DNA from: an uncultured SAR116 cluster alpha proteobacterium
Lineage (GTDB): Bacteria; Pseudomonadota; Alphaproteobacteria; Puniceispirillales; Puniceispirillaceae
NCBI GenBank assembly: GCA_902583715.1
Contig: CACHXC010000014.1
Span: forward strand, 1 to 44,000
Reading direction: 5' to 3'
DNA: 44,000 bases
Made by a program: the position numbers and the translations under genes. How positions within the stretch are numbered: position 1 is the stretch's first letter; each line of letters begins with the position of its first letter. This document shows positions 2-31,709 of the stretch, piece after piece. The notes beneath the pieces are model-generated. The model was not told the origin of the DNA. It saw nothing but the letters and a program-made list of their open reading frames with translations, and did no database searches.

Positions 2-961
2 TGTTTAACCGGTGGGCAATTGAAAATCTACATTCGCGATAAGGATAAGTTTTTGGGTCAGGCGACGAGCTTAGTGAACATTCTATATGAAAAACAGGAT
101 GTTGATAAGAAGAACCGCCAAATCAAAACAATGATGAAAGTTTCGGTAAAGTCCAATATGTTGCAGGCAATGTTTGCCGACAACGCACCCGCCGCTGCGT
201 CGGGTAGCGCTGGTTTTCTGGTGTATGTGTTTGCTGGCCGACAAGCGGTGCAAACTGTCGAGGGAAGCTCAGGTGGCGGGTCAACCAAGGTGTTTGACAC
301 AAAGCGGACTGACATACAGAGTGGTAAATCGGCATCGTCGGCCACTGAAATGTCAGCCCAACAGGGCGATACGATGATGACAGCTCAGCAGACAGAAAGC
401 ATGTCAAAGACTGTTACTGGCGGTAGCAGCGAGAAAAAAAATGATATCGTCGTAGGCGACACTGTTACTATGGGCAGTCGTCAATATGAGATGATAAGTA
501 CCAAGGGCATGGATGCTACATTTAAAGAAATTCTTACTGGCAACGGCTTCCGGCCTGTTCCGTTTAATGCAACCACACGCAAATGTGGGTGTCGCGACCC
601 AGAGATTTTGGAAGCCGAACTGGCTGAGACGGGTGATTTGTCACCTGACTCCTGGGACATGATTGCTCAGTGTTTACAGGAAAAATGCCGGATACCATTT
701 TTCGCTGTTGGCACTTTAGATGCAAACACGCCGATGCGTAGCAAGGTCAAACAAGGCATGTGGCAGGTACAAGCTAAGGTTACAGGAAAGGTGATTGATT
801 TGCGTGACTTTTTGCCCGTTGATATAGCCGCTTTTAGCACGCGTTATGAGGATGGATTCGACAGCGCAGATAATGCTGCGCTCGAAGACGCAATTAAACT
901 TCTTGGTAAAACTACAGCGCAGGAAATTGCCTCGCAGATGAATGCTGCTGGCGTTAGGTAA
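2..961 (+). CDS. 5'-truncated exported/envelope protein of unknown function
   Basis: The reading frame is open at the left edge of the window and ends in TAA, so the real start lies upstream; a TTG at 20 is only an internal candidate. The visible 319 residues have a short folded N-terminal part, a Ser/Thr/Gln/Gly-rich low-complexity linker (about residues 85-145) and a globular C-terminal half with paired cysteines (CGC, then C-x5-C). The last 60 residues, with a predicted beta-strand 'TGKVIDL' followed by an Ala-rich helix, resemble the end of CsgG/LpoB-like periplasmic domains; this is a weak pattern match. It is the first visible gene of a five-gene + strand operon of exported proteins, 7 nt before the next start. 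Function unknown. Confidence 0.75.
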   Translation, partial: CLTGGQLKIYIRDKDKFLGQATSLVNILYEKQDVDKKNRQIKTMMKVSVKSNMLQAMFADNAPAAASGSAGFLVYVFAGRQAVQTVEGSSGGGSTKVFDTKRTDIQSGKSASSATEMSAQQGDTMMTAQQTESMSKTVTGGSSEKKNDIVVGDTVTMGSRQYEMISTKGMDATFKEILTGNGFRPVPFNATTRKCGCRDPEILEAELAETGDLSPDSWDMIAQCLQEKCRIPFFAVGTLDANTPMRSKVKQGMWQVQAKVTGKVIDLRDFLPVDIAAFSTRYEDGFDSADNAALEDAIKLLGKTTAQEIASQMNAAGVR

Positions 962-968
962 CTTCAGA

Positions 969-3347
969 GTGTCACGTAGACTTAACAGCTTTTTTAGGAT
1001 TGGTTTATCCTCGCTAATCGCCATTTTAGCCTTAGGCACCCCTTTGGCTCATGCGGAAGAGGAGTTATTGGATTTTGATGCGCCGCCACGTAATTTGGCG
1101 AAGCCGATCAAGACGATTGAGAATGGTTGTTCGTCATTTATCACCAAGAAGTTGCAGAAGAAGATTGGCCAGAACTTCAAGCCGAATGGTGACGAGTTTT
1201 GGATGCAGACTGGTCAGGCGCAGATTTCTGGTCCGGTTGGTGGAGAGAATTACATCAATGAGCGGATGAACGCCTATGAGGCGGCGGTATTAGATGCCAA
1301 GCGCAAGATTTTAGCAGGGATGAAGGTGGAGGTTGCGCGTGAGGTATCATATCAACTGTTGGGCCCTGAGCAGAAGGAAGCGTTGAAAGCCGCTGCACCT
1401 GAGGTGGACAAGCAGAAAATTGCACAATATGAAGACAAGCGTGATTTTAGTTCAGCGGTTATGAAGAGTCTTGAACTATTGAACCGGGAACTTGATCAGA
1501 AGCTTGAGGAAACCGAGCCTGCCGTATCGGAGCCTGCACCAGTTTCGCTTGACCAGGCCGTTGAGCAGAAGAAGCGCAAGGTTGGTGTGCGTTTTTCGGA
1601 TACGATTAATGCCAGCGCTATGAGCCAGCTTTACGGTATTCGCCGAATTTTTGTGTTGGATAATTCACCAAAGGAGTCTGACATCAAAGGCACGGTATGT
1701 GTTGCGGTAGTGTATTCTGAAACCACACGGCGTATTGCTGATGCGATGCATGCACAGGACCCGTCACTATTGCCGGCCACGAACCAGCCGGGACCACCAT
1801 TGGCGATGCAGATTCCAGACAAGTCAACACCTGAGGGGCTGACTGCGCTGGTAACGACAATGGGTGTTGATAGCCGGGTTGATGAGAATGGCGATTATTG
1901 GTTGATTTCCTATGCAATTGCGGGACCTGAGGTTGAAGGCAACACAGCCGCACAATTGGCGGCGCGTCAGATGGCTTATGAACGCGCGCGCGCTGGACTT
2001 CGCACCTACATGGGCGAGATTGCAACGATGAAAAGCCTGACGGATCTCAAGTCAAAAACTGATGTGTTTGGCAAAGGGGATGAAGCCTATACATTTAATA
2101 ATAATTTTGATTATCAGGTGAAATCGGCATCGGAGTCAGCATCATTATTTGGAGCTGTTGACGGGGAAGAATTTGCGGCCACCCATCCGGAGACGGGCAA
2201 TGAGGTGATTGGCGCTTATGTGTTGTGGAGTTCCAGCACTATGGCCGGCGCCAAAAAAGAGTTCAAAGACATGAACGCACCGCGCCCGCAACCAACGGCC
2301 AGATCGGGCTCCGAAAATAAGGTGACGCCGGCATCATCGGCTGTCGCCGCTGCATCAGGCCTATCATCAGGCGGGACGAAAAAAAGCACGTGTGCCGACG
2401 GTGATTCGTATCGCTTTATTATTCAGACGGTCGAGGCGAGCGGCACTGGTGAAACAATGCATCAAGCAACATTGCAAGCGTTGCAAACAGCGGTCAGCAA
2501 AGTCAATGGATTGGCCATTGCCGCGCAAACACAAACTGATATCCAGTCGGTCAGTAGCGGTAATCAGGACAGCACAAACTATGCGTTTTCCAATGCGTTC
2601 CAGCAATCTATAAGCACCGCAACAAAAGGCGTCATTCGTTGCTGGGATGTGGTCGACTCAAAACAAAGCAGCACCGTTGCCGGGGCACAAGAAATTCGGT
2701 TATTGGTCACTGTAACAAAATATAAATCTGATCCGTCACTGAACTTGCCGCGCGTGGCGGTAACAGATTTTTCATTGTCGCCAGAAGCTCGTAAATCTAC
2801 TAAGGGACGCAATGTTGCGTCGAGCGTGCCGCGTCGAATTATGGATGTCTTAAGTGACTCCCAAAAATTCGCAATGATTGACAGACAATATATGGATCTG
2901 ACACAGGCTGAATTGGACTTGATCACGGGAGACAGCTACAAGCTGGAAGAATTGGCCCGGCTTGGCAACCGGGTGGGCACCGATTACTTGATTGTGGGGA
3001 CTGTGACCAGCGTCAAAGAGTGGGTTGAAACGCGCACGATGAAATCAACTGGCAAAGTGTTTAGGAATGTCAATAGTGATGTTTCTGTATCGATCCGGAT
3101 GATTGATGTGGCGACGTCTCAGGTAGTCTATGCTGGTGAGCCGTCCTACCGGGGGGCGCATAGTTTGAAAACGGCAACCGATTATATTATTTGGTTAGCA
3201 GGCGCCAATATTGTTAACTCCTTATATCCAAATACAGTCGAGTTGCCAAAGCCACCGGTTGCTCAAAAAACATCGATCAAAGATGTAGAGGAATTTGGCA
3301 AAAAAGCTCTCGATGATCTGAAGAAGGAGAGTCAGAATGACTGGTAA
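969..3347 (+). CDS. Exported CsgG/FlgT-like protein, long member of a duplicated pair
   Basis: 792 residues from a GTG at 969, chosen because it gives a compact signal peptide (basic MSRR start, hydrophobic core, cleavage after AHA near residue 28) and has an AGG about 10 nt upstream. An in-frame ATG at 942 overlaps the previous gene and has no ribosome site. Residues about 20-443 are the block shared with the next gene; they contain two Ala-rich helical segments (near NAYEAAVLDAK and QMAYERARAGL) like those of LPP20/FlgT-type periplasmic domains. Residues about 475-590 look like another FlgT-N-like unit. Residues about 592-770, starting at LPRVAVTDFSL, look like a CsgG/LpoB-type domain. The family assignment is inferred from patterns. 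It may serve an outer-membrane or secretion-associated assembly. Its stop overlaps the next start by 11 nt. Confidence 0.85.
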   Translation: MSRRLNSFFRIGLSSLIAILALGTPLAHAEEELLDFDAPPRNLAKPIKTIENGCSSFITKKLQKKIGQNFKPNGDEFWMQTGQAQISGPVGGENYINERMNAYEAAVLDAKRKILAGMKVEVAREVSYQLLGPEQKEALKAAAPEVDKQKIAQYEDKRDFSSAVMKSLELLNRELDQKLEETEPAVSEPAPVSLDQAVEQKKRKVGVRFSDTINASAMSQLYGIRRIFVLDNSPKESDIKGTVCVAVVYSETTRRIADAMHAQDPSLLPATNQPGPPLAMQIPDKSTPEGLTALVTTMGVDSRVDENGDYWLISYAIAGPEVEGNTAAQLAARQMAYERARAGLRTYMGEIATMKSLTDLKSKTDVFGKGDEAYTFNNNFDYQVKSASESASLFGAVDGEEFAATHPETGNEVIGAYVLWSSSTMAGAKKEFKDMNAPRPQPTARSGSENKVTPASSAVAAASGLSSGGTKKSTCADGDSYRFIIQTVEASGTGETMHQATLQALQTAVSKVNGLAIAAQTQTDIQSVSSGNQDSTNYAFSNAFQQSISTATKGVIRCWDVVDSKQSSTVAGAQEIRLLVTVTKYKSDPSLNLPRVAVTDFSLSPEARKSTKGRNVASSVPRRIMDVLSDSQKFAMIDRQYMDLTQAELDLITGDSYKLEELARLGNRVGTDYLIVGTVTSVKEWVETRTMKSTGKVFRNVNSDVSVSIRMIDVATSQVVYAGEPSYRGAHSLKTATDYIIWLAGANIVNSLYPNTVELPKPPVAQKTSIKDVEEFGKKALDDLKKESQNDW
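1026..2296 (+). repeat. Direct repeat copy 1 (1,271 bp) inside the CsgG-like gene
   Basis: This block recurs 2,362 bp downstream at 3388-4658. The translations are identical over 423 residues, and the stretches of nucleotide sequence I compared are also identical, including third codon positions. The borders are abrupt: left at TTAGCCTTAGG within the signal peptide and right at CGCAACCAAC. Both copies are in frame in their genes. No transposase or terminal inverted repeats are present. Confidence 0.95.
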
Positions 3348-4776
3348 ATTTACCAAAAAATCGACTTTGGCAGCGGTATGTGGCTTGTTAGCCTTAGGCA
3401 CCCCTTTGGCTCATGCGGAAGAGGAGTTATTGGATTTTGATGCGCCGCCACGTAATTTGGCGAAGCCGATCAAGACGATTGAGAATGGTTGTTCGTCATT
3501 TATCACCAAGAAGTTGCAGAAGAAGATTGGCCAGAACTTCAAGCCGAATGGTGACGAGTTTTGGATGCAGACTGGTCAGGCGCAGATTTCTGGTCCGGTT
3601 GGTGGAGAGAATTACATCAATGAGCGGATGAACGCCTATGAGGCGGCGGTATTAGATGCCAAGCGCAAGATTTTAGCAGGGATGAAGGTGGAGGTTGCGC
3701 GTGAGGTATCATATCAACTGTTGGGCCCTGAGCAGAAGGAAGCGTTGAAAGCCGCTGCACCTGAGGTGGACAAGCAGAAAATTGCACAATATGAAGACAA
3801 GCGTGATTTTAGTTCAGCGGTTATGAAGAGTCTTGAACTATTGAACCGGGAACTTGATCAGAAGCTTGAGGAAACCGAGCCTGCCGTATCGGAGCCTGCA
3901 CCAGTTTCGCTTGACCAGGCCGTTGAGCAGAAGAAGCGCAAGGTTGGTGTGCGTTTTTCGGATACGATTAATGCCAGCGCTATGAGCCAGCTTTACGGTA
4001 TTCGCCGAATTTTTGTGTTGGATAATTCACCAAAGGAGTCTGACATCAAAGGCACGGTATGTGTTGCGGTAGTGTATTCTGAAACCACACGGCGTATTGC
4101 TGATGCGATGCATGCACAGGACCCGTCACTATTGCCGGCCACGAACCAGCCGGGACCACCATTGGCGATGCAGATTCCAGACAAGTCAACACCTGAGGGG
4201 CTGACTGCGCTGGTAACGACAATGGGTGTTGATAGCCGGGTTGATGAGAATGGCGATTATTGGTTGATTTCCTATGCAATTGCGGGACCTGAGGTTGAAG
4301 GCAACACAGCCGCACAATTGGCGGCGCGTCAGATGGCTTATGAACGCGCGCGCGCTGGACTTCGCACCTACATGGGCGAGATTGCAACGATGAAAAGCCT
4401 GACGGATCTCAAGTCAAAAACTGATGTGTTTGGCAAAGGGGATGAAGCCTATACATTTAATAATAATTTTGATTATCAGGTGAAATCGGCATCGGAGTCA
4501 GCATCATTATTTGGAGCTGTTGACGGGGAAGAATTTGCGGCCACCCATCCGGAGACGGGCAATGAGGTGATTGGCGCTTATGTGTTGTGGAGTTCCAGCA
4601 CTATGGCCGGCGCCAAAAAAGAGTTCAAAGACATGAACGCACCGCGCCCGCAACCAACTGATGATATGACGCCGAATACTGGAGCAGGTGGAAATTCTAC
4701 TCCAGCGCCAGCTAAAAAACCCTTTCAAGGTTTCAAAGGATCGGCAGTTGGTGGCACCTCGGCTAACACCTATTAA
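3337..4776 (+). CDS. Exported protein, short paralogue of the CsgG/FlgT-like gene
   Basis: 479 residues with a signal peptide (MTGKFTKK start, cleavage after AHA near residue 27). AAGGAG lies just before the ATG, and the start overlaps the upstream stop by 11 nt, so translation is probably coupled. Residues 18-440 are identical to the upstream protein. Only the first 17 residues and the last 39 differ; the tail is rich in Gly, Pro, Thr and Asn and looks disordered. It lacks the FlgT-N-like and CsgG-like C-terminal parts of its neighbour. The pair may therefore be two forms of one subunit that share a binding or assembly domain. This is inferred from architecture; no function is known to me. 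Confidence 0.85.
   Translation: MTGKFTKKSTLAAVCGLLALGTPLAHAEEELLDFDAPPRNLAKPIKTIENGCSSFITKKLQKKIGQNFKPNGDEFWMQTGQAQISGPVGGENYINERMNAYEAAVLDAKRKILAGMKVEVAREVSYQLLGPEQKEALKAAAPEVDKQKIAQYEDKRDFSSAVMKSLELLNRELDQKLEETEPAVSEPAPVSLDQAVEQKKRKVGVRFSDTINASAMSQLYGIRRIFVLDNSPKESDIKGTVCVAVVYSETTRRIADAMHAQDPSLLPATNQPGPPLAMQIPDKSTPEGLTALVTTMGVDSRVDENGDYWLISYAIAGPEVEGNTAAQLAARQMAYERARAGLRTYMGEIATMKSLTDLKSKTDVFGKGDEAYTFNNNFDYQVKSASESASLFGAVDGEEFAATHPETGNEVIGAYVLWSSSTMAGAKKEFKDMNAPRPQPTDDMTPNTGAGGNSTPAPAKKPFQGFKGSAVGGTSANTY
3388..4658 (+). repeat. Direct repeat copy 2 (1,271 bp) inside the short paralogue
   Basis: Second copy of 1026-2296, in the same orientation and reading frame. Bases flanking each border differ between the copies (T versus G at the left, G versus T at the right), so the identity stops sharply. 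Recombination between the copies would remove 2,362 bp and fuse the first signal peptide to the short C-terminal tail. Confidence 0.95.
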
Positions 4777-4805
4777 GTGGTGGTGTCAGTCTATCGATTC
4801 TCAGG

Positions 4806-6047
4806 ATGAAGACGGCTGGGGCTTGTATGATGGGTTGGCACTTGTTTTTCTACCTGCAGGAAAAAATTAAGCTACGGCTGTCTTTGGTGCTGGTGTGTTT
4901 AACATTTTTAACAATAAACAACATTGCGCTAGCAGCGACTTCTACCCAGACCATCACAATTCGTAAACCAGACTACCAAACCCCGTTGGCAGCTTTAGAA
5001 CAATATGCCCAATCTATTCTGTTCAAAAATGTGGCCTTGGCCGCAGTCAACTTTGACTGGCGAGCCTTCCCCCGCCTAAGCCCAGAACATCATGCCGTTC
5101 TGACTAGGCATTATCTGCCGACTGGGAATCAGTCGTTCAATATTGCCGGTGTGACGCTGATCGCAAGTAAACATGATACTGACTACTATTATTTTACTTT
5201 TGCCTATGAAGAGCCACCTACAATCACTGTGAATGTTGATCAAGGCCAGATGGCAGTACTTCTTGGCAGGGTCGAATCATCGGGGCAGGTTGATGATATA
5301 GCCGCTTATATTGACATCGGCTTGACTGATCCTGCCTTAGTTAGGGCGAACAATCTTGCTGCGATATGGAAGCGCCACTTCGGCTATTATAGCTATGATG
5401 CTGTTGTTTTGGGGCGCATCAACCATTTTGGCGCTGTAAAATTTTCTGCTAAAAAGATCGCCTCATCTTCCCTGCCACCCGATCTTGAAGGCGCGTGGCA
5501 ACTATTTGACCTTGCACCGTTTAACTTGACGGTTTGCAACCACCTGGTGTCGCGTCTTACACCTGAATTGGCAAAGTTGCGTCACTTGCTGATGGGTCAT
5601 TGCCACGCAATTAGTCAACTGAACGATGAAGACGCCTCTTGGAGGTCCAAAAAGGCACAGCAAAAAAGCACGGCGATTAGGGTTGAACTGGACCAGCTTC
5701 GTGAGTTGTTTGCGTTTGATGTCGCTTCACGACCACTATTCTTTGTGCTCGTTGCATCGAATGGGGTATTTGAACTGACGCCTTCGTTGATTGTGCCCCA
5801 AGTGGCTCAATACACTTACGGAGGCGTGGATATGGAAGCGGGCTTTACCCCGCATCAGCTACCAAAACAATATTTGAGCATAAGCGATATGCGTAAACTT
5901 CTGAAATTTTTGATTAAAAATGAAATGCCAATTTTGGCAGGACTGATTGAGACTGCAATCACAAAATACCAAACAGACCTGAGCAAGAAACAACTTGATG
6001 CTGATGATTTATCATCTCAGTTTGAGAATAGTTTTGGCAAATACTGA
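4806..6047 (+). CDS. Secreted protein of unknown function
   Basis: 413 residues from the ATG at 4806. The hydrophobic segment at residues about 22-42 (core LSLVLVCLTFL) ends in an ALA-A signal-peptidase-like site, so the protein is probably exported. An ATG at 4830 would give a shorter, more normal n-region and has GGGG about 8 nt upstream; the true start is uncertain. The mature part is a mixed alpha/beta protein with several Cys and His residues but no motif I recognise. It sits 29 nt after the short CsgG-like paralogue and 42 nt before the Sel1-like gene, so it is probably co-transcribed and may act in the same envelope assembly. Confidence 0.75.
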   Translation: MKTAGACMMGWHLFFYLQEKIKLRLSLVLVCLTFLTINNIALAATSTQTITIRKPDYQTPLAALEQYAQSILFKNVALAAVNFDWRAFPRLSPEHHAVLTRHYLPTGNQSFNIAGVTLIASKHDTDYYYFTFAYEEPPTITVNVDQGQMAVLLGRVESSGQVDDIAAYIDIGLTDPALVRANNLAAIWKRHFGYYSYDAVVLGRINHFGAVKFSAKKIASSSLPPDLEGAWQLFDLAPFNLTVCNHLVSRLTPELAKLRHLLMGHCHAISQLNDEDASWRSKKAQQKSTAIRVELDQLRELFAFDVASRPLFFVLVASNGVFELTPSLIVPQVAQYTYGGVDMEAGFTPHQLPKQYLSISDMRKLLKFLIKNEMPILAGLIETAITKYQTDLSKKQLDADDLSSQFENSFGKY

Positions 6048-6089: not shown

Positions 6090-7613
6090 GTGAGCTCTAA
6101 TAAAATTGTTATTTTCTCGGCTGTTTCAGTTGCGACTTTGTTTTTGAGCCAAATTGCCCAAGCTGGGTTATTTGACGACCTAAAAAAACTACAGCAGGAC
6201 CTGGAGCAATTGCAAAGTGGAAATATGCCTGAAATTCCATCGGGTAGCGGCAATACCGGTGGGCTTGGTGGTGGTGCGTTAGGTATGGGAAGCACCGCTT
6301 CAAGCGGGGATGTCAATGCTGATGAGGCAGACCAGGATACTGTTGATGCTGCTTGTCGCGCCGCTATGAAAGAGGGCAAAGTTAATGCAGCAGCCATTTT
6401 CAAAACACTCCCAAAACCTGATATTCAACTTCTAAAAAGTGATTTTTCTATTGCGCCAGAAAAAATAAATACGGAGCTAAACCGTGCTCCGAAAGCCAAT
6501 GAACTAAATGCTGACGTGGTAAGCTTAGAGCTTTATAGAAATGCGTTTGAGACGGGTGTGATTGCGTCTTTGTTCTCTCAATTTCTTGATACCGTTGGAA
6601 ATAAAGCTGATTACATGTCGATTATGAAACAAGTAGCCAATTCAGACAAAGGTTACGATAAGAAGAAAGGTGCGATGAAACGTGACGCGCAGCAAGCGTA
6701 TGGAATTATGCTTTTGTACTATCAATCGCGCGGTGCAAATGCCTCAACTGGTCTTGGCTATTTAAAAGCTTCAGCCAAAGGTGACTCTACAAAAGCTATG
6801 ATTTCCACGTATCAACTTGGTCATCGAGCTTATTATGGCATTGAAGAACCAAGGAACTTATCTAAAGCGGCATCCTGGATGTTGAAATCCTATGAGGCTG
6901 TGGAGCGAAGAAAACGCTCAGCTATGAGGGCGCAAACATCGATCCCACTTTCTGAGTCTTTTATCCAATTGGTAAATAACGAATTTCTTGAATTAGTTGC
7001 TGACCCTGCCTATGCACGGCGTGAGATGTATGCAGATTTGAGCCAAGCGGCGCAATCAATGCGCGAATCAATGACACAATCAATGCAAAATGCAAAAGGT
7101 AGGTCACCAGATATTGAGGCCATCACAAAGGCTTATCTGATCCGTGAGTCGCAGATCAATGCATCAATCATGAGGGCTATAGGGCAAGAAGCGCAGGCAA
7201 CAATTGAAGAACAACGCTTGCAGAAGTTTGCTGATGACCAGTCAAAAGATGACGAAAAATATAACGACTATTCTTATACAACCTCTGAATCCCGAAAATT
7301 TATTGTTTCTGAGCTGAAAAATGTCAAAGCACTTGATGCAAGCCAAAAACAAAAATTTAGCGACGCGATGCGAGAGTTGGCCCTTCTTACTATTGAGATG
7401 AAACGTATTGAACGTCACATGATAGGCCAGATAGCGACGGGGCAAATCGATATGATGCAACTGACTGTGGCAACCCCCGTCCTTACGAGCGTAAAAGTGA
7501 CTTGCAAACTCTATGATGCTTTGAACGACGTCGGTACAAAAATGGGCGCACCAAAGGCGGATGTAGTGTTTAGCTCAGATGCAGAAGATACAGTTATCAA
7601 CATGGCAGAATGA
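6090..7613 (+). CDS. Exported Sel1/TPR-like repeat protein
   Basis: 507 residues from a GTG start with a strong AAAGGAGG 5 nt upstream. The signal peptide ends at AQA near residue 25, followed by a helical stretch and a Gly/Ser-rich linker (about 50-75). Residues about 205-270 show Sel1-like repeat features: a 'GLGYLKASAKGDSTKA' unit followed by 'GHRAYYGI...NLSKAASWMLKS'. Sel1 repeats are helical scaffolds for protein-protein contacts. The rest is helical and Gln/Ala/Met-rich, with no catalytic motif seen. It is the last gene of the + strand operon and converges on the - strand operon across 63 bp. A scaffold role for the neighbouring exported proteins is inference. Confidence 0.8.
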   Translation: MSSNKIVIFSAVSVATLFLSQIAQAGLFDDLKKLQQDLEQLQSGNMPEIPSGSGNTGGLGGGALGMGSTASSGDVNADEADQDTVDAACRAAMKEGKVNAAAIFKTLPKPDIQLLKSDFSIAPEKINTELNRAPKANELNADVVSLELYRNAFETGVIASLFSQFLDTVGNKADYMSIMKQVANSDKGYDKKKGAMKRDAQQAYGIMLLYYQSRGANASTGLGYLKASAKGDSTKAMISTYQLGHRAYYGIEEPRNLSKAASWMLKSYEAVERRKRSAMRAQTSIPLSESFIQLVNNEFLELVADPAYARREMYADLSQAAQSMRESMTQSMQNAKGRSPDIEAITKAYLIRESQINASIMRAIGQEAQATIEEQRLQKFADDQSKDDEKYNDYSYTTSESRKFIVSELKNVKALDASQKQKFSDAMRELALLTIEMKRIERHMIGQIATGQIDMMQLTVATPVLTSVKVTCKLYDALNDVGTKMGAPKADVVFSSDAEDTVINMAE

Positions 7614-7676: not shown

Positions 7677-9011
7677 TTATATCTCCATAACGTTTATGCA
7701 TTGCTGTTCAAATTTACTGGCCGTCTGCTTGTGAACCTTTAACTTTATATATGGCTTGATCTCTTGGTTTCTTTCGGTGGTCGTAAAATCCTTCCGGTAT
7801 CCATTTAGCAAAGTTTTTCGTTGGGCTGGGTCGTTTATCGCGGCAAAGGTTTTGTCAAGGAGTTGCTCTATTAGGAGGAAAATAGTTGCAAAATCTGAAC
7901 GACGATATTTTTCTTCTTTGAAAACGCTTTGGACTTCCTCAGCGAATAATAACTGATTGAATCTGGGCTTTTCTTCAGCGCCAAAAGTGACGAACTCAAT
8001 TTTGATCTGTAAGAAGACTATTAACTTCTGTGCAAACTGATTTTTATCTCTCGGGTGATCTTTGTACTCTACCTTCCAGTTATGAACGATTGGGGTAATG
8101 ATAACGTCACCATCGGGAAGCTCTAGTCTAAAGGCTTCTTTGCCGCGGAAATTGATCGCTAAATCGCCGGTGCTAGCACGACTATCCTTGAAAGGCACCA
8201 TACTGACTTTCATTTTTTCACCGAATGACGTGGTTGCAGCGTGACCCACAAAGTCTGTAAATGTATTTTCATTAAGGCCCAGTTGATGCAAGCCCTTACG
8301 CGCGCCATCTGCAAGTTTAACTGTTTGAACACGGTAATTGAGTCCAGTCTTGATCGCGCCAAACGGGTAGTCTTTCAGCTTTTTGCTATACCAGTCGGCA
8401 ATGGTGTCACCGTCGGCGCTTTTGTTGGTGAACATCCTCAAATAATAATCACCAACAGCTGTTTTATCGAGACCGTCCTGTGCGTTGTAAATGCGACCTC
8501 CAACTGGATAGCTGGCGAGCACTTTACGGCCGTTACGCTTATCTATACTAAAAATAAAGTTGTAGGCAATAAGTCGCAAAACGGTAAAACTGTTGATCTC
8601 TGTCCGGCTATCTTGAATTGTAAGCTCGGCGGCTACGGCCATGATCATGCCATAACGCGCGGTACCGCCCTGTCCACCCTGAGCAATGCTTAGCCTGAAG
8701 TCTTTCGACTCCCAAACGGCTGGGTCAACTGACTCAAGCGCTTGTGTCAGTACATTATTTAGGATCGGCACACTGCTGCCCGGGTCTGTCTTGTCGAGAA
8801 GGGGCAAAAAATTTGGTAGTGCTACTGGCCCGTCATTGGGTAGATAGCTTATTCCACCCCAGACCACGGTCTGCCCGTCAAAGCCGGTGAAGGTTTGCTG
8901 GTCGCCTGCAGCGATACCAAGGCCAGGAAATTGAGTGCTGACCATCAGTGCAGTTGTGGCGCCAACGCTCTGTTGCATCATTTGCCGGCGGTCAAGTTTC
9001 ATTTTTCCCAT
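7677..9011 (-). CDS. Tat-like exported protein of unknown function
   Basis: 444 residues, with AGGAG about 6 nt before the ATG. The N-terminus has a twin-arginine-like motif (DRRQMMQ, about residues 7-13), a moderately hydrophobic stretch and a small-residue region near residue 35, which suggests export folded through Tat. The RR motif departs from the S/T-R-R-x-F-L-K consensus, so ordinary Sec export remains possible. The mature protein has alternating hydrophobic strands and Lys/Asp-rich loops, with no enzyme motif I can name. It is the last gene of a six-gene - strand operon, 31 nt after the TPR protein. Unknown function; probably works in the periplasm with that anchor protein. Confidence 0.8.
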   Translation of the reverse strand: MGKMKLDRRQMMQQSVGATTALMVSTQFPGLGIAAGDQQTFTGFDGQTVVWGGISYLPNDGPVALPNFLPLLDKTDPGSSVPILNNVLTQALESVDPAVWESKDFRLSIAQGGQGGTARYGMIMAVAAELTIQDSRTEINSFTVLRLIAYNFIFSIDKRNGRKVLASYPVGGRIYNAQDGLDKTAVGDYYLRMFTNKSADGDTIADWYSKKLKDYPFGAIKTGLNYRVQTVKLADGARKGLHQLGLNENTFTDFVGHAATTSFGEKMKVSMVPFKDSRASTGDLAINFRGKEAFRLELPDGDVIITPIVHNWKVEYKDHPRDKNQFAQKLIVFLQIKIEFVTFGAEEKPRFNQLLFAEEVQSVFKEEKYRRSDFATIFLLIEQLLDKTFAAINDPAQRKTLLNGYRKDFTTTERNQEIKPYIKLKVHKQTASKFEQQCINVMEI

Positions 9012-12334: not shown

Positions 12335-13081
12335 TTATCGGTCGTCAGATTTCAACTCTTCTAGCTTCTTGCTGAAATTTGCCGCGATGATGCCGGCGGG
12401 CAGGGCCACGACACTGATCCCCAAAATGGCTACCATGCTGGCCAGCAATTTTCCTAGTACGGTGATCGGATAGGTGTCGCCATAACCGACTGTGGTTAAT
12501 GTCGCCATTGACCACCACATGGCCCGCGGGATGCTGCCAAACATTTCAGGCTGCGCCTCGGATTCAGCCACATATAATAGGACGGCGCCGACAAACAGCA
12601 TTAGCAGTGTCGCTATCAGGCTGGCGGCCAACTGGCTTCCCGAGGCCCGGCAGGCAATGAAAAATGCCATCAAGGCACGGTTTGACTTGATCAGTTTGGC
12701 AATCCGCATCATGCGGATCAGCCGCACCAGCCGGATCAGCATCAGGTCGGGTAACAAACCCGCAACAAGTCCTGGCAGAATAGCGATAAGATCAACCAGC
12801 GCAAACGGACTGACCATATATTTCAACCGCCCTTTCAGCCCTTGATATTCTGGCCGGACCCCGGCCAGCACCAAGCGCGCGATATATTCGCAGCTGAAAA
12901 TCGTCAAAAAGATTGTTTCGGCCTGATCGAAATATCCCTGGAACGGTTGGCTTAATGTTGGCTCGGTTTCCAGTACCAAGGCAAAGACCGAGAGCAGAAT
13001 AATATAGCTAAGCCCACGTTCCAAAATGGTCGATGTGCCCGTTTCAGATGGGAAAAGGCTGTTTTCTAAATAAGTCTTCAT
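12335..13081 (-). CDS. Voltage-gated potassium channel subunit (6-TM Kv-like)
   Basis: 248 residues from the ATG at 13081, which has GGAG 8 nt upstream; a TTG 57 nt earlier is less likely. The segments read as S1-S6 of a tetrameric cation channel. The S4 voltage sensor shows Arg every third residue (RLVRLIRMMRIAKLIK). The pore has the K+ selectivity filter TVGYGD at about residues 198-203, and the pore helix MWWSMATLT precedes it. S6 ends in PAGIIAANF. It probably sits in the inner membrane and passes K+ in response to voltage. The gene lies 40 nt downstream of a second ion-channel-like gene in the same operon. Confidence 0.93.
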   Translation of the reverse strand: MKTYLENSLFPSETGTSTILERGLSYIILLSVFALVLETEPTLSQPFQGYFDQAETIFLTIFSCEYIARLVLAGVRPEYQGLKGRLKYMVSPFALVDLIAILPGLVAGLLPDLMLIRLVRLIRMMRIAKLIKSNRALMAFFIACRASGSQLAASLIATLLMLFVGAVLLYVAESEAQPEMFGSIPRAMWWSMATLTTVGYGDTYPITVLGKLLASMVAILGISVVALPAGIIAANFSKKLEELKSDDR

Positions 13082-13121
13082 GATAAAAACTCCGGCCAGA
13101 AACGGCGTAAGCTGTCGGCAC

Positions 13122-15011
13122 TTATTGCTGTTCGACAACCATCAGGCTTAATTGTTGATATCCATCAGGCAGCGTGGAATCAGCATCTGGATTGATAATC
13201 GAGGTGCGCGATCCGTCACTAGAATAGCTCCAGCCGATCAAGATTTTCTGTTTTGTCAGCAAGCCCCGTCCGATAGCGCCAAAGCTGCTGGAAAGTGGCG
13301 TTTTGCCCGCCTTGACCGGATAGAGTTTTATATGATGCGTTTGTGAGCAAATCAATTTGTCGACGATATGGCGCAGGACCGGATTCTCGATATATTGGGC
13401 AAACACTTTACTGCCAATCTTCTCGCTAACAACAAAATCAGAGTCAAGTTCATACGCCAAAATATCTCGGTTTTTCCCTTCCAACATTTCGGCGATCAAA
13501 TGTGTGTCCGCTAGATTATCAGCAAGCAAACTCCGCAAAATCTGGATCGATTTTATCGTTTGTACATCGTTGCCGCCGGTCTGTGGCAAGGCGGTGTGCG
13601 AGACAATAATGGCGTCAAAACTATCTGGCTTCAAACGCGCTAGGTCAGTAGGGCTATCGGTTTTGGCCACGATAAATTTGGCCTTGGTCGTTTTTTGCTG
13701 TGCAAGATCCTGCTTCATGGCGGTGCCAATTTCATTGTCTGGAAGGCAGACAGTCAGTTGTTTTACACCTGTTCCAGCATGGATCAGCCGGTCAAAAATA
13801 AAACGGTGATTGGTTGACATGCCGATTAGGAGCACACGCTGTGCTGTGGTGTTCTTGGCATCAATTTGTTTCAAAATCGTTGTGTTGTTTGCGGGTGTGT
13901 CATCAGTGGGGCTGGCGGCTTTAGCCGCAATTGTCGAATCATCCTCGGATATGACAATTAACCGATCATTTGCACCAACAATGGCCTTTGCATCAGGGGC
14001 TATTTCAATCCGATTATCATGGGTCCAAAACCCGATTGGGATGCTGTGGTCAAGCGCGCTCCACGCGGCAACAAAGGGCATTTCGCCAAGTCCAAGCTCT
14101 GTCATGCTATTTGCAATGTATATCTCGTTGCCGTCGAAGCTCAAAATCTCTTCATATATATCGGGCAGGTTCGGCTGAATCACCGTTTCAACGATCAGCC
14201 GTGCGGGAATGTCACTCACATTGACAGTAACCGCTTTGCTGGCCGATGCCATATTGATGATGTCTGTTTCATCTCTACTGTCAACATTGACGATGATTTC
14301 TGGCCACCGTGTCTCAGCAATATTGTTGGTGGCAAGATAGCGGCGAATAGAGAGATAAATTTTCAACCTACTCCCTTCAATCTCTTCAGATGTATCGCCC
14401 AAGATTAATATCTGCCGAGCGGCGCGCAGGTTGGCATTGTCAAAACTGCTTTCAGTGCACAGGTCGCGGCTACGACAATATAATTTCGTGGTTTTCAAAT
14501 CAGCAAAGGAGGTCTCAATTAAACTAGCCAGTTTATCAGCCGGCTTGGCCGACAAAATTAAGATGCGGAGCAACTTGTTGCTCTCATTGGCAATAACCAA
14601 TTCTTCAATAATTGCCGTCAGTCGGGGTGACCAACCCAAAATCACAATATGGTTGTCAAACGGGAACGGTTGCGATCCGTTAGTCACATCTTGAACCCGT
14701 GCATCAATGATTGCCGATAACAGGCTAATCAAGATCGACAACACAAAAATACCGAACAAGGTGATGCCGAGAAGCACAAGAAGATAGGGAAGTGAGCCCA
14801 TACTGGCTTCAATTTCCCACGGGGTGACAGCCCGCATCATCAAGTCCCAGAACAAGCCGCCAAAGCTTTCTTGTGGCCCTAATTCAAATATCCAAACCAA
14901 ACCCGCCGCGGCGATCACCGCCATCAGCGAAATAATACCCAACCATAAAATCAAGCTGTTAGAGCCGCGGCTTAGCATATCATCAATGTAGAATTTTAGT
15001 TTTGATACCAC
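13122..15011 (-). CDS. CASTOR/POLLUX-like putative ion channel with two RCK-type domains
   Basis: 629 residues from a GTG at 15011 with AGG 6 nt upstream; the frame is open to a TTG at 15053 that lacks a ribosome site. Two transmembrane segments (about 20-43 and 74-103) flank a pore-like loop (WDLMMRAVTPWEIEASMG). Two nucleotide-binding-like RCK/TrkA-N regions follow, starting at HIVILGWSPR (about 120) and RVLLIGMSTNHR (about 395). This layout matches the CASTOR/POLLUX/DMI1 family, known from plant nuclear cation channels and from bacterial relatives. The filter sequence is not the canonical TVGYG, which is usual for this family. It is the first gene of the six-gene - strand operon and is divergent from the helicase gene, 99 bp away. 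Confidence 0.85.
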   Translation of the reverse strand: MVSKLKFYIDDMLSRGSNSLILWLGIISLMAVIAAAGLVWIFELGPQESFGGLFWDLMMRAVTPWEIEASMGSLPYLLVLLGITLFGIFVLSILISLLSAIIDARVQDVTNGSQPFPFDNHIVILGWSPRLTAIIEELVIANESNKLLRILILSAKPADKLASLIETSFADLKTTKLYCRSRDLCTESSFDNANLRAARQILILGDTSEEIEGSRLKIYLSIRRYLATNNIAETRWPEIIVNVDSRDETDIINMASASKAVTVNVSDIPARLIVETVIQPNLPDIYEEILSFDGNEIYIANSMTELGLGEMPFVAAWSALDHSIPIGFWTHDNRIEIAPDAKAIVGANDRLIVISEDDSTIAAKAASPTDDTPANNTTILKQIDAKNTTAQRVLLIGMSTNHRFIFDRLIHAGTGVKQLTVCLPDNEIGTAMKQDLAQQKTTKAKFIVAKTDSPTDLARLKPDSFDAIIVSHTALPQTGGNDVQTIKSIQILRSLLADNLADTHLIAEMLEGKNRDILAYELDSDFVVSEKIGSKVFAQYIENPVLRHIVDKLICSQTHHIKLYPVKAGKTPLSSSFGAIGRGLLTKQKILIGWSYSSDGSRTSIINPDADSTLPDGYQQLSLMVVEQQ

Positions 15012-15110
15012 AGCACACCTGCAACGAGGATACAGACTCGAAATGAATTTCAAAAATATATTACATTTAGCGTATGTTCATGTCACCCCTATTCAAAAAA
15101 GGACCTGCTT

Positions 15111-19575: not shown

Positions 19576-20715
19576 TTATAAGCTTGCGTCAATCTGCATT
19601 AGCAAACCAGCCATCATGCGCCCGCGCATGGCGAGGCTGTCAACTTCTATGTGCTCATCAAGTGTATGAAATTTATCACCGGCAACACCAAGGCCGTCCA
19701 GAGTAGGCACGCCCATAGCACCGGTAAAATTGCCGTCACTACCACCACCGGAGCTTTCATGTCGGAATGGCTGACCTAAATTTTTGGCTAACGCCTCCGC
19801 CATGGCCACAAGCTTCATTGTTGCTGGCGACGATTCCCAAACAGGTCTTGTCAAACCTAATGTCACTTTTGTGGACACTTCGGCCGTTGGATCATTCAAC
19901 TCCAGCATTTTTTCAATGCCCGCATCAAGGTCAGCTTGCTTTTTTGCCATTGACAAAACTTCGGCTGTTGCTTCCGATGACACGCAATTTACCCATTGGC
20001 CCGCATGGGTTACCCCAACCGAAAATGTACAGTCGTTCTGGCTCATGGACTCGATTGCAATGATGGTCTCGGCCATTTTTCGAATAGCGGAACGTCCCTC
20101 TGATAAACGGAGCCCGGCGTGGCTCGGTCGTCCACAGGTGCTGACGTGATAGCGCGCGACAGCATAGCGTCCAGAAGTAACACCGTTGCCACGACGTGCA
20201 GGTTCTGGCACCAAAACAGCGATAGCGCGTCCCGCTTCAGCTTCGATCAAATTACGTGTATACGGAGAACCAATTTCTTCGTCTGAGGTAAATAAAACAG
20301 TAATTGGCAAAGGAGTTTGCACGTCAACAGTGGCGAGCTGACGGATGGCTTCAAGAGCCAAATAGTTTCCTCCCTTCATATCAGCAATACCGGGACCATA
20401 GCAGAGGTTCCCATCACGCCAGAATGGTAATTTGGCCAACGTACCAATTGGGTGCACCGTGTCCATGTGGCCTAAAATGAGGAGACCTGGGTCACCGATG
20501 TCTGGATGTGGAAATCGTGCTCGAATGCAGTCACCAGCAAGCGGATGTGGTGTTATACGCTCGACACTCGCCCCCATCAACGCAAGATCGTGTGCCGCGA
20601 TGTCTTGCATACGGTTTACCGCCGTTCGATCAAAACTTGGACTTTCACACAAGACCCATTTTTGCAGACCGTCAAGCATCTTATTGGCATCAAAATTCAA
20701 CTTGGTCAAATCCAT
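19576..20715 (-). CDS. M20-family metallopeptidase (carboxypeptidase G2-like), copy A
   Basis: 379 residues from the ATG at 20715, which has AAGGAG 9 nt upstream; upstream in-frame ATGs lack such a site and would give an atypical 46-residue extension. Motifs of the di-zinc M20 family are complete: GHMDTV (His and Asp ligands), ADMKGG (bridging Asp), SDEEIGSP (catalytic Glu and ligand Glu), VPEPARR (ligand region) and the C-terminal FHTLDEH (last His). Carboxypeptidase G2-like members remove C-terminal Glu or hydrolyse acyl-amino acids. No signal peptide is seen, so it is cytoplasmic. It diverges from the gamma-glutamyltransferase gene and fits intracellular breakdown of imported peptides. Confidence 0.92.
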   Translation of the reverse strand: MDLTKLNFDANKMLDGLQKWVLCESPSFDRTAVNRMQDIAAHDLALMGASVERITPHPLAGDCIRARFPHPDIGDPGLLILGHMDTVHPIGTLAKLPFWRDGNLCYGPGIADMKGGNYLALEAIRQLATVDVQTPLPITVLFTSDEEIGSPYTRNLIEAEAGRAIAVLVPEPARRGNGVTSGRYAVARYHVSTCGRPSHAGLRLSEGRSAIRKMAETIIAIESMSQNDCTFSVGVTHAGQWVNCVSSEATAEVLSMAKKQADLDAGIEKMLELNDPTAEVSTKVTLGLTRPVWESSPATMKLVAMAEALAKNLGQPFRHESSGGGSDGNFTGAMGVPTLDGLGVAGDKFHTLDEHIEVDSLAMRGRMMAGLLMQIDASL

Positions 20716-20922
20716 GAGCGGTCTCTCCTTAAGCATCTCTATAGACGTCGACATGATTGCCTTTGGCAAGTAATCGTTCTGAGGAAACTTAGCGCGTGCG
20801 CCGAAGTCTGGACAAGTTGTATTGTCATTGATTTGATCATTTCGGCTAGCCACATCATTAAAACCCCATGTACGCTGTGATTGTTTCTCTCAGTCACGAG
20901 CCACATTCAGAGGAGTGCAACT

Positions 20923-22533
20923 ATGACAAAATGTATGATCTCGGCACCGCAACCGGAAGCGGTTGAGGCTGGGCTGGAAATTTCCAAAGCAGGTGGGAAT
21001 GTGGTTGATGCAGCAGTTGCCGCAGCGATGGTGCAGACAGTTGTTGATCCACAAATGTGCGGCATAGCTGGATTTGGCGCAATGCAAGTAATGCGTCCGG
21101 CCAATAATATTCATCACTTTATTGATTTTCATGGACGGGCGCCGCTGGCTACAACAGCTGAAATGTGGGCTCATTTAATCGAACGCGAATGTGATGATGG
21201 TTTTGGTTTTGTGCTTAAGGGGCGAGTTAATGAATTTGGCTATCAGTCTATGACGTCCCCAATGACGCTTTGTGCCTTTGATTTTGCCCTATCCAATTAT
21301 GGCACAATGTCGCTCAGTGATGTTATGGCGCCGGCAATCAAATATTGTTTTGAGGGGTTTGCAGTGCGACCGCGGGTACACGCTTTCTGGATGCAACCTG
21401 CGCAATGTGGTCGGATGAGACGGGTTGCTGTAGTTAATAAGTTGCCAGCCGCGCGAAAAATCTATCTTAATGCTGATGGCAACCTATTGGCTGTTGGCGA
21501 TATTCTTAAAAACCCTGATATGGGGCGCACATACGAACGTATTGCCGCCGAGGGAGCAGGTGTGTTCTATCATGGTTCAATCGCTGACGAGATAGAGACT
21601 GATATGATTGCAAATGGTGGGTTGATTACCAAACAGGACCTTGCTGCTTGCACCCCCACAATCAGCCCGCCCTTAGTAGGAAGTTATCGCGGTATTGAGG
21701 TTGCTACCAACCAGCTTCCGGGTGGTGGTCCAATGATTTTACAAATGTTGAATATTCTTGAGTCATTTGATCTTTCATCAATGGGACATAATTCGGTGGC
21801 CTATATCGCTACCGTTGCGGAGGCCATGAAGCTAGCAACCATAGACAAAGACCAGAAATTGGGTGATCCAAATTTTGTGGACGTGCCGCTGGACAATATA
21901 TTGTCAAAAGCCTATGCCCAGTCATTAGCCAAACGGATTCGCGCTGGTGAAAGAGCGATTGTAGAGCGGGTCAATAATGGAACAGCAGAAAGCAAGGATA
22001 CGACTCATTTAGTTGTCGCTGACAGTGATGGCAACATCGTTAATGTGACCCATTCACTTGGCTCGAGCTCTGGCGTGGTCACTGAAGGCCTTGGATTTAT
22101 GTATAACAATTGCATGATGGTATTTGATCCGCGTCCTGGGCAAATTGGTTCGCTGGCGCCAGGCAAGGCGCGCTTTACCGCAATGTGCCCAACAATTTTA
22201 TCAAAGGACGGAGTTGCCATGCTGGCGCTCGGTGCGCCAGGGGGCACCACGATTACCATGGGTGTTTTGCAGACTATTTTAAATGTGATTGATTTTGGCA
22301 TGTCTGCGCATGATGCCGTATCTGCGCCAAGGTTCTGTGCGACATCGAACCAAATTGAACTTACTAACCGTATTTTTCGTTCAGTTGAGTCTGAATTAAA
22401 TGATAATGGTTATGAAACTGTCAGATTTGCCGCCAGTTATGTCACCCCAATTGTGCATGCCATTCGAATGATTGACGGCAAGCTTGATGGTGGCGCAGAT
22501 CCAGCTGGTGACGGCATGTCTGCATCTATTTGA
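20923..22533 (+). CDS. ggt: Gamma-glutamyltransferase family Ntn-hydrolase
   Basis: 536 residues from the ATG at 20923, preceded by GAGGAG at 7 nt. The N-terminal half has the large-subunit signature GGNVVDAAVAAAM; the autoprocessing site is TTHLVVADSDGN with the new N-terminal nucleophile at Thr360, followed by a small subunit of about 177 residues ending with the oxyanion/substrate motif GAPGGTTI. GGTs cleave gamma-glutamyl bonds such as those in glutathione or gamma-glutamyl peptides. Classical GGTs are periplasmic, but no signal peptide is visible here, so this one may act in the cytoplasm on imported substrates. Its stop is 10 bp from the convergent M20 copy B stop. Neighbouring peptidases and the peptide importer support a role in peptide nitrogen use. 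Confidence 0.93.
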   Translation: MTKCMISAPQPEAVEAGLEISKAGGNVVDAAVAAAMVQTVVDPQMCGIAGFGAMQVMRPANNIHHFIDFHGRAPLATTAEMWAHLIERECDDGFGFVLKGRVNEFGYQSMTSPMTLCAFDFALSNYGTMSLSDVMAPAIKYCFEGFAVRPRVHAFWMQPAQCGRMRRVAVVNKLPAARKIYLNADGNLLAVGDILKNPDMGRTYERIAAEGAGVFYHGSIADEIETDMIANGGLITKQDLAACTPTISPPLVGSYRGIEVATNQLPGGGPMILQMLNILESFDLSSMGHNSVAYIATVAEAMKLATIDKDQKLGDPNFVDVPLDNILSKAYAQSLAKRIRAGERAIVERVNNGTAESKDTTHLVVADSDGNIVNVTHSLGSSSGVVTEGLGFMYNNCMMVFDPRPGQIGSLAPGKARFTAMCPTILSKDGVAMLALGAPGGTTITMGVLQTILNVIDFGMSAHDAVSAPRFCATSNQIELTNRIFRSVESELNDNGYETVRFAASYVTPIVHAIRMIDGKLDGGADPAGDGMSASI

Positions 22534-22543
22534 CGTATATTGC

Positions 22544-23710
22544 TTACAGACCGGATATGGTTGGTTTGTGCGCCAATCTAAGAATGGTGTTGGCAATAAA
22601 ACGCGCGCGCTGCGCAAGGCTGTCAATTTGCATCCATTCATCTGGTCGATGATAGTTACCTCCAACTGGACCAACACCACAGATCACCGGTGTGCCAGCA
22701 GCAGCAATAAACCCACTATCGGCACAGCCTCCAGAATGTTCGCCGTTAACTATTACGTTGTCTTGTGCTGCGCTGTCCTGATACAGAGCGAACAATTCTG
22801 ATGATTGTGCTGACGGGTTCAGCGGTTGAAATTCCCCTCGGATGTAAAATTTGGAAGATGTACCTGCAACACTCACCGTCTCGCAAATCGTTCTGACTTG
22901 AGACAGGATGTTGTCACGCTCAGCTGTTTCTTGGTAGCGGATGTCAATGTCACAGCTTGCCTCAGCAGCGACTGTGTTCACTGACTGCCCACCTTGCACC
23001 AGTCCAACATTGATTGTTGTGCCCTTTTTTAGGTTCGTCAGCGCGTGTAGAGACTGAATTTTGTGAGCTAGTTCTTCGATTGCGCTACGCCCATCGGTAA
23101 AAAAACCACCGGAGTGTGCAGCAACGCCCTTGATCTCGCAGTGACAGAAAATGCCGCCTTTCCGTTTAGTAACGATATTGCCGCTTGGCCGACTAGGCTC
23201 GCTATTGAATGCTATTCTTGCCTTTTCAGCTTCGGCAATAATGATGTTCTTTGACGACGGTGACCCAATTTCCTCGTCGCCTGTAAACAGTCCAATTAGA
23301 GGATTTGGATGTCCGCCAAATTTATGAAAAGCTGCCAAAATAAAAGCATTAATCACCAGCCCTGGTTTCATGTCGGCAACGCCTGGCCCAAAGGCCTTTC
23401 CATTATGCGTGGTAAATGGCCGCTTTTCTACTTCACCCGTTGCAAATACCGTGTCCCGGTGACCGCAAAGCAGGATATGCCTGTTCCCGTCACCGCCTGA
23501 TACGACTGCGCGCAAAGCATCACCATGGTCTGGCAGAGGAATAGTTTCATATGGAATAGCGTGATTATCAAAAAATGTACGTAACCGGACCGCGACTCTA
23601 TCAACGCCAGCTTTGTCAAAGCTGTTACTGTCGATATTTACGAGATCAGCCAGAAGGGAGAGCATATTTTCCTGCTGCGCGTTTAACCAGTCGATAATTG
23701 GCTCAGCCAT
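22544..23710 (-). CDS. M20-family metallopeptidase (carboxypeptidase G2-like), copy B
   Basis: 388 residues from the ATG at 23710 (AGGA 7 nt upstream); an ATG 6 nt earlier is too close to the ribosome site. Complete M20 motifs: CGHRDTV, ADMKPG, GDEEIGSP, NSEPSRP and NYHRPDEW. It is of the same subfamily as the peptidase at 19576-20715 but clearly diverged, so the two are paralogues with probably different substrate ranges. Cytoplasmic, no signal peptide. It lies 30 nt downstream of the DMT-transporter gene on the same strand and is probably co-transcribed with it; product export or substrate import by that transporter is possible. Confidence 0.92.
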   Translation of the reverse strand: MAEPIIDWLNAQQENMLSLLADLVNIDSNSFDKAGVDRVAVRLRTFFDNHAIPYETIPLPDHGDALRAVVSGGDGNRHILLCGHRDTVFATGEVEKRPFTTHNGKAFGPGVADMKPGLVINAFILAAFHKFGGHPNPLIGLFTGDEEIGSPSSKNIIIAEAEKARIAFNSEPSRPSGNIVTKRKGGIFCHCEIKGVAAHSGGFFTDGRSAIEELAHKIQSLHALTNLKKGTTINVGLVQGGQSVNTVAAEASCDIDIRYQETAERDNILSQVRTICETVSVAGTSSKFYIRGEFQPLNPSAQSSELFALYQDSAAQDNVIVNGEHSGGCADSGFIAAAGTPVICGVGPVGGNYHRPDEWMQIDSLAQRARFIANTILRLAHKPTISGL

Positions 23711-23740
23711 GGACATGTCCTTTCAAAGCAAGTAAAGTTT

Positions 23741-24661
23741 TTAGAGGTGTGGTTGTTGAGGCTCTCTCATCTCACGCCGAATGACATATAATGATGATAC
23801 AAAAATGATGCTGGCACCCACCCAAGTCCAAATATCTGATAACTCGCCAAACATAATCCAACCTAAAAGAACTGCAAATGGAAGTCGGGCATAATCAATC
23901 CCAGCCACAAAAGAAGCATCTGCCAATTTATATGCTTTGGTCATCGTGATATGCCCGACGACTGCTGCCGGGCCAGTTGCGATAAGAATTGCCCACACCT
24001 CAGATACTGGCCACTCCCAAACATACAACGCTGGCAATAATGCGATTGGCATCATGATCAGGTGTGAAATAAATACAATTATTAATGGGTTATCACGTCT
24101 AGTGAGGTGCTTGAGGATCAACATGGAGCATCCCATCGCCAGTGCTGATGCAATAGCCACAAAGTGGCCTAGCGTAAAATCGATAATGCCGGGACGGATA
24201 ATTATTAAGGCGCCAATGAAGCCAACAGCTATTGCTAACCAGCGCCGTATTCGAACAACCTCGCCAAGAACGAGTGCTGCGCCCATAGTGGTGAAGAGCG
24301 GCGCAAGAAAACTAAGGGCTGTTTGCTCACCAATAGGTATCAGTGTAACTGCATAAAACCAGGTCCACATTGCTGTGATGCCTGAAACTGATCGTAGCAT
24401 GTATGTTTTAAGTTGTGTGGTTGTAACCGTGTTGATGCCGGCATGAAGAACCATGGGCATCATGACCAAAAATGCAAAGAGCAGTCGGCAAAAAACAGTT
24501 TGAAACGGATTAACATCATAATTGCCAAGCAAACGGCCCATTGCGGCAAGAAAGGATAACGCAACACATGATACGATCATCCAAAAAGCCGCCTGAACCG
24601 ACCTGTCTTTTTCATGAAGCATTCGAGTAAAATTTCTCAAAGTTAAGCTTTCTGTACCCAT
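23741..24661 (-). CDS. DMT-superfamily (EamA-type) membrane transporter
   Basis: About 306 residues from the ATG at 24661; an in-frame GTG at 24691 would add ten residues and the start is not firmly settled. The protein has about ten hydrophobic helices in two five-helix halves, the usual EamA/RhaT arrangement; the second half starts around IIRPGIIDFTLGHF. Characterised members export amino acids or other small metabolites. It is divergent from the peptide-binding-protein gene and upstream of M20 copy B, so it may remove amino acids released by intracellular peptide hydrolysis. That substrate assignment is inferred from context only. Confidence 0.88.
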   Translation of the reverse strand: MGTESLTLRNFTRMLHEKDRSVQAAFWMIVSCVALSFLAAMGRLLGNYDVNPFQTVFCRLLFAFLVMMPMVLHAGINTVTTTQLKTYMLRSVSGITAMWTWFYAVTLIPIGEQTALSFLAPLFTTMGAALVLGEVVRIRRWLAIAVGFIGALIIIRPGIIDFTLGHFVAIASALAMGCSMLILKHLTRRDNPLIIVFISHLIMMPIALLPALYVWEWPVSEVWAILIATGPAAVVGHITMTKAYKLADASFVAGIDYARLPFAVLLGWIMFGELSDIWTWVGASIIFVSSLYVIRREMREPQQPHL

Positions 24662-24871
24662 GTTTCCAAAAGCATCAAAATCTCTCTTCACTAATTACAT
24701 AAACGGCGTTCAGGATTCTTAAAAGACCGTTGAGAAATTTTGACCAGACTTTTCGAGACGCTGATAGGCCCAGGTATGAAACAAAATAGTCCTAAAGTCT
24801 TGGCAAGTCCGCAATGATATGCTCAACTTTTTCGGATTAAAATAAAATAAGAAGGCTAGGGAGAAGTTGAA

Positions 24872-26389: not shown

Positions 26390-26392
26390 TGC

Positions 26393-26435
26393 ATTGCTGC
26401 GCACCCTTGGGTGCGCAGCAATCCCCTCCGTTTTT
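26393..26435 (+). terminator. Strong hairpin with T-tract between binding-protein and permease genes
   Basis: ATTGCTGCGCACCC (26393-26406) pairs perfectly with GGGTGCGCAGCAAT (26409-26422), a 14-bp stem with a minimal loop, followed after 8 nt by TTTTT (26431-26435). It starts 4 nt after the binding-protein stop and ends 18 nt before the permease start. Such elements typically act as partial terminators or block 3' decay so the binding protein is made in excess over the membrane subunits. The gap between stem and T-tract makes full termination less certain. Confidence 0.85.
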
Positions 26436-26452
26436 CTAACGGGTGAAACAGA

Positions 26453-28260: not shown

Positions 28261-28269
28261 GAGTTGCCA

Positions 28270-31673: not shown

Positions 31674-31709
31674 TAAATTTGTCCTCGCTATCTTTTATTT
31701 CCCAATGCC

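Follow-up and report, generated by a model that had tools for sequence, protein, structure and literature searches.

How can two neighbouring genes encode proteins that differ at both ends and share a long internal segment to the last base? This question is raised by a tandem gene pair near the start of a 44,000-nucleotide stretch of DNA (contig CACHXC010000014.1, assembly GCA_902583715.1; the whole stretch is called the window below) from an uncultured alphaproteobacterium of the SAR116 cluster, a marine group. The window lies on contig 14 of a draft genome that comprises 51 contigs and is 59.8% complete. The first gene of the pair, the long gene (942..3347, plus strand, 801 amino acids (aa)), encodes a signal peptide, a domain termed R, a linker and an FlgT/CsgG-like domain; the second, the short gene (3337..4776, plus strand, 479 aa), encodes a signal peptide, R and a tail of low model confidence. 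R denotes the domain of the shared block, common to both proteins. If the long open reading frame (ORF) starts at the ATG at 942, it overlaps the upstream gene; a start at the GTG at 969, a plausible alternative, would remove the overlap and let the protein begin like a signal peptide. Our analysis favours domain-restricted concerted evolution, in which an old tandem pair had its R domain homogenised by gene conversion in each lineage, and we give this reading a probability of about 0.7.

The two copies of the block (1026..2296 and 3388..4658, both plus strand) showed 0 differences over 1271 bp, and the block ends are exact, with the next base differing on each side. Windows of 50 bases in register and wholly outside the block were 16–34% identical. 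Both copies are in frame and agree at 423 of 423 third codon positions; they correspond to residues 29–451 of the long protein and 18–440 of the short one, running from inside the signal peptide into the low-complexity linker or tail. The remainders are a linker with the FlgT/CsgG-like part in the long gene (2297..3344, plus strand; Pfam CsgG match at about 2748–3140) and the tail of the short gene (4659..4773, plus strand). The blocks form the sole direct repeat family of the window (seed 16, minimum length 40), and a search of the 1.49-Mb incomplete draft genome at E ≤ 0.001 returned these two places only. The identical in-frame blocks, the abrupt divergence of their flanks and the continuation of the long gene into FlgT/CsgG-like domains had been reported in a preliminary description of this DNA made from the letters alone, and all of these observations held (Pfam CsgG, E 1.2e-8; FlgT fold match, E 2e-10).

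The evidence that bears most directly on the origin of the identity came from a second species of the same genus, SAR116 bacterium AG-447-A06 (G013; draft assembly, listed at 80% complete, 70 contigs). Its gene order is the same as in the window: an upstream gene (G1), the long gene, the short gene and two downstream genes (G4 and G5). Its long and short genes carry an identical block of their own, with 0 differences in 1333 positions, and the named record (L047) contains both copies. The short proteins of the two species, however, were only 41.5% identical over 465 aligned residues, with 52% identity of the DNA and 37.6% at third codon positions. Comparable values were obtained for the non-duplicated CsgG part (45.3% aa and 36.2% third-position identity) and for G5 (40.7% and 33.3%); those of G1 were 69.6% and 41.1%. 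When both genomes were pooled, 0 differences in 2604 positions placed the 95% upper bound for divergence between R copies at about 0.0011 per site. Silent sites are therefore near saturation between the species and unchanged within each genome, and the paralogues within a genome are more alike than the orthologues, silent sites included, as expected of concerted evolution by gene conversion. The preliminary description had proposed comparing orthologous loci and had expected pairs homogenised within strains and diverged between them; the pattern was found, at the level of species rather than strains, and ongoing gene conversion, one of the explanations it had offered, is supported at that level.

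Phylogenetic trees gave a similar picture. In the R tree the long and short copies grouped by genome (support 100/100), and in the CsgG and G1 trees the window and AG-447-A06 grouped together (100/100). Constraining the two long R copies to group together was rejected by the approximately unbiased test (p-AU 1.9e-53). The rows of the R tree include the differing ends, A_MB73 forms a long branch, and the tree analysis gave warnings for long branches and composition.

Identity within each genome would also be expected if the short gene's R had been newly copied in front of the CsgG-like part in each species independently, the copies being identical because they are young. The absence of any difference in both genomes fits such an account. 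A distant alphaproteobacterium (G468) likewise encodes R and a CsgG-like domain in a single frame, at least 703 aa long. One common origin of the order's fusions is neither favoured nor rejected by the CsgG tree (p-AU 0.289), so that fusion may have occurred more than once. In addition, the window linker matched the last 9 residues of the short protein of AG-447-A06 (1 of 2000 shuffles reached the score). Against this stand the short gene-specific ends. When only sequence strictly outside both tracts was compared, no shuffle in 2000 reached the score of the match between the linkers of the two long genes, and 2 of 2000 reached that between the short tails, whose last residues match in the two species; the window tail and the linker of AG-447-A06 did not match (1780 of 2000). 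Such conservation of the ends across the two species makes it probable that the duplication predates their split. The two species also have in common the architecture and the limits of the block, which begins in the signal peptide and ends in the linker, the 11-nt overlap of long-gene stop and short-gene start (3337..3347, plus strand, in the window), and the lack, in both long genes, of a C-terminal extension found in the aligned CsgG-like relatives (L050 excepted, where there is a run of unknown residues). Independent duplication would require the same in-frame fusion twice, both times very recently, and we consider it unlikely; the very recent duplication suggested in the preliminary description is disfavoured on the same ground of conserved ends. 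The tract of AG-447-A06 reaches further into the linker, and that stretch matched the window short tail (2 of 2000 shuffles) and not the window linker (750 of 2000), which suggests that in this species the short gene was the donor and the long gene the recipient.

We also considered whether the identity could be an artefact of assembly or amplification, the cell holding one R copy or two unlike copies. Both genomes are incomplete drafts of many contigs, short reads resolve an exact repeat of 1.3 kb poorly, and assembler collapse of a few real differences between R copies is possible. However, the same structure with in-frame junctions appeared in two genomes whose short genes differ at nearly half of their nucleotides, and in a second family of the order this architecture occurs with copies that can be told apart. 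We therefore regard an artefact, which the preliminary description had named as the main alternative, as very improbable. Hardly more credible is a recombination switch, also proposed there, in which exchange between the blocks deletes 2,362 bp, turns off the CsgG-fused form and leaves one R protein: direct repeats of this size recombine readily and the joined frame would stay open for 490 aa (a computed length only), but it does so simply because the copies are homologous, the deletion would be irreversible without a second copy, the window holds no inverted repeat of at least 40 bp (the search covered neither shorter ones nor recombinase sites), no positive evidence was found, and among the 16 genomes of the genus 2 had both R copies, 14 had no R match and none had the deleted form.

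Relatives of R were found in 20 of the 136 genomes of the order, the window genome included: 5 in its own family and 15 in a second family, f4. Within the window's genus the distribution of the locus is patchy, and G1 was absent from all 8 genomes that are at least 90% complete. Two of the 15 f4 genomes (G057 and G089) had one R gene after an unfused CsgG-like gene. Among the other 13, a long frame with R' (the weakly matching R of this family) and a CsgG-like part was present in 11, some cut by contig ends, and only a short gene was present on the contig in 2. Nine pairs, one of them partial, could be compared from these 13 genomes, the genes of G103, G045, G110 and G128 lying on broken or short contigs. 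All nine had diverged despite the same architecture, with 29–52% protein identity and 41–54% identity at third positions, and in the R tree no long copy of the second family (7 genomes) paired with its own short copy. Homogenisation is thus not automatic in this arrangement, and the need for identity is not general. The longest identical run, taken as a sign of conversion patches, was within chance in 7 of the 9 pairs; the pairs of G039 and G116, which are close relatives, each had an identical run of 23 nt, located alike in both (p 0.007 and 0.005, uncorrected).

The unfused order, CsgG followed by R, was seen in G020 (which we take to be Puniceispirillum marinum IMCC1322), G027, G035 and A_MB73. 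An alignment query of the genome contig collection retrieved 6 loci in named records, three titled SAR116 (AG-447-A06, AH-287-L13 and AG-893-M18) and three titled only as alphaproteobacteria (AAA015-N04, UBA685 and A_MB73); the AG-numbered records are single-cell genomes. No relative was detected in this collection with the single short protein as query, or in the viral contig collection with the alignment query.

What R is can be said in part. Its profile matched one solved structure well above the rest, 4QVR (FTT_1539c; E 4.4e-11, or 1.8e-14 with the A4 alignment), and 4QVR was the only match of the predicted R fold with E < 0.001 (E 3.7e-8; TM 0.32 and 0.46). The title of the PDB entry names no function. 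In one study mice were immunised with Francisella outer-membrane vesicles, and FTT_1539c is listed among the proteins that their sera recognised, in the portion of that report available to us (PMC10963506). All 6 members of the A1 alignment matched DUF6844 at E values up to 1 (best 1.1e-4). R thus resembles 4QVR in profile and fold, but the window R scored below the Pfam cut-off of DUF6844 (18 against 27 bits). In the phylum sample DUF6844 was found in 5 of 398 genomes, 4 above the cut-off and the window's own below it, and our literature search for DUF6844 found no mention of the term. A GatB match to R (NCBIfam) was weak and unrelated, and a single-sequence search of the PDB gave only one of the same kind; matches of the R profile to Y-family polymerases (E 0.014–0.029) were taken as chance.

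The C-terminal part of the long protein exceeded the cut-off of Pfam CsgG (PF03783; 35 bits against 20.8). The best fold matches of the long-protein model were FlgT (3w1e, Foldseek), an LPHT ring entry, 4QVR, CT253 and CsgG, with PelC further down. FlgT, CsgG and PelC form rings, as is in part stated in the titles of their entries. Since the best fold match was FlgT and not CsgG, we make no claim of a curli role for the modelled protein; curli operon partners and a lipoprotein signal were not searched for. A profile survey placed a CsgG match beside R, or fused to it, at 15 of the 16 loci covered. Ten of these 16 loci had contributed to the profiles; among the other 6 the match was present in 5. 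R stood directly before a CsgG-like gene in G852, G770, G520 and G587 and after one in G239. As the genes are adjacent or fused, R and the CsgG-like protein are probably partners. A literature search joining FlgT, CsgG, LpoB and two more terms retrieved nothing.

One old pair of a fused and a free R gene, homogenised later, is the simplest account of the trees, the ends, the truncation and the overlap. According to the favoured reading, the ancestor of both species would have carried a tandem pair composed of a long R–FlgT/CsgG-like fusion gene and a separate gene for R alone; parsimony suggests that the fusion was already in place in this ancestor. Homologous recombination between the direct repeats without crossover, that is gene conversion, would then have overwritten one R copy with the other, and we infer conversion rather than repeated unequal exchange or re-duplication. 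The outcome would be two identical R copies in each genome while R diverged to near silent-site saturation between the species. Several observations weigh against this reading. Homogenisation was seen in two lineages only, and the nine f4 pairs diverged with the same architecture. The relatedness of the CsgG parts does not in itself establish an ancestral fusion with R, and in G416 R occurs with no CsgG match. Both assemblies are of draft quality, and rare differences may have been lost in assembly. Nor are the ends strictly specific to one gene each: the window linker weakly matched the window tail (p 0.0385) besides the end of the short protein of AG-447-A06; these cross-matches can be read as remnants of an old shared R end and at the same time weaken the contrast between the ends. 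Finally, mean pLDDT is 60 for the R model, which we trust for overall kinship only, and 68 for that of the long protein.

As to function, we infer that the pair probably supplies a subunit of an envelope assembly in two forms, one free and one anchored to a ring. With much less confidence than in the conversion itself, we suggest that the long protein may form rings in the outer membrane or periplasm and serve there as a scaffold for displaying R; free R would assemble on this scaffold, and identical copies would ensure that the surfaces that assemble together still fit. The weakest step of the proposal is selection for such matched copies, because family f4 does without homogenised copies. 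R dosage is a fair alternative reason for identical copies. A speculative extension, which we hold to be doubtful, is that R is a self-matching, fast-changing assembly module; conversion would change the ring-anchored and the free copy in one step and give each lineage a private matched pair, with co-diversification and not simple dosage as the result.

Homogenisation confined to one domain is already known as a kind. The mtrA-1/mtrA-2 genes are a very close precedent, nearly the same case: there, too, one copy of a tandem operon duplicate was fused to its downstream partner and only the shared domain was converted, and for Methanococcales and Methanomicrobiales the authors argue against repeated duplication from synteny and shared gene structure, as far as the available text of the paper goes (PMC4632066). 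Those genes belong to an archaeal methyltransferase complex of many species, whereas the genes described here encode bacterial exported proteins, in two species, with no difference within the tract. The ligA/ligB genes of Leptospira are likewise tandem exported-protein genes that share a long, nearly identical segment and differ elsewhere, and the part of the review available explains the identity by gene conversion (PMC7821625). Their identical segment, however, extends to sequence ahead of the start codons and codes for Ig-like domains, while that of the window starts inside the signal peptide and the gene starts differ. In the accessible portion of a survey of prokaryotes, 26 genes with long-lasting full-length conversion are reported and partial cases are left for later study (PMC6053082). 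As in tuf, amoCAB, fla and others of that survey, the paralogues of the window are closer within than between species at silent sites, but here conversion affects one domain only and not the full length. No publication on SAR116 with gene conversion was on this subject, judged by title. Few cases were found in which a single domain of two unlike proteins is homogenised (mtrA-1/mtrA-2 and ligA/ligB), and the window pair adds an example with a useful natural control: in family f4, in the same order and with the same architecture, the copies have diverged, which lets one ask what keeps copies identical. It also ties the little-studied, 4QVR-related R domain, by adjacency and fusion, to an FlgT/CsgG-like and perhaps ring-forming partner.

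Some further features were noted at related loci. In several f4 genomes the long and short R' genes are separated by a further gene, 403–412 aa in length or, in the G106 group, 135 aa (L055:6680-7918, L057:6486-7697, L058:6490-7704 and L053:6541-6948), to which G4 of the window showed no match at E 1e-3. In G045, overlapping parts of short R' genes lie at L068:8898-9504 and L067:2-1300; since they are only 83% identical over 300 bp, they are not one gene and point to another copy or mixed strains. Between its G1 and CsgG-like genes A_MB73 carries two direct copies of a 232-bp sequence (L052:4639-4870 and 5393-5624, 95.7% identity), one of which lies in an ORF of 229 aa (4517-5206). Downstream of the locus in G057 are two neighbouring ORFs with 75% identical DNA (L012:2517-3318, 271 aa, and 3369-4170, 272 aa).

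The pair in the window is preceded by G1 (2..961, plus strand), whose 5' end is cut by the contig start and which has a homologue in 11 of the 16 surveyed loci. It is followed on the plus strand by G4 (4806..6047), probably exported and fast-evolving, with 24% aa identity to AG-447-A06, and by G5 (6090..7613), probably exported. A convergent conserved neighbour without an NCBIfam match lies at 7677..9011 on the minus strand. At 12335-15053 two overlapping ORFs encode an Ion_trans channel and a protein with a Castor/Pollux mid domain. Among the ORFs scanned at 19576-33107 are genes for three M20 peptidases, a gamma-glutamyltranspeptidase, a family-5 solute-binding protein and a permease, and this region is perhaps an uptake locus for peptides or amino compounds.

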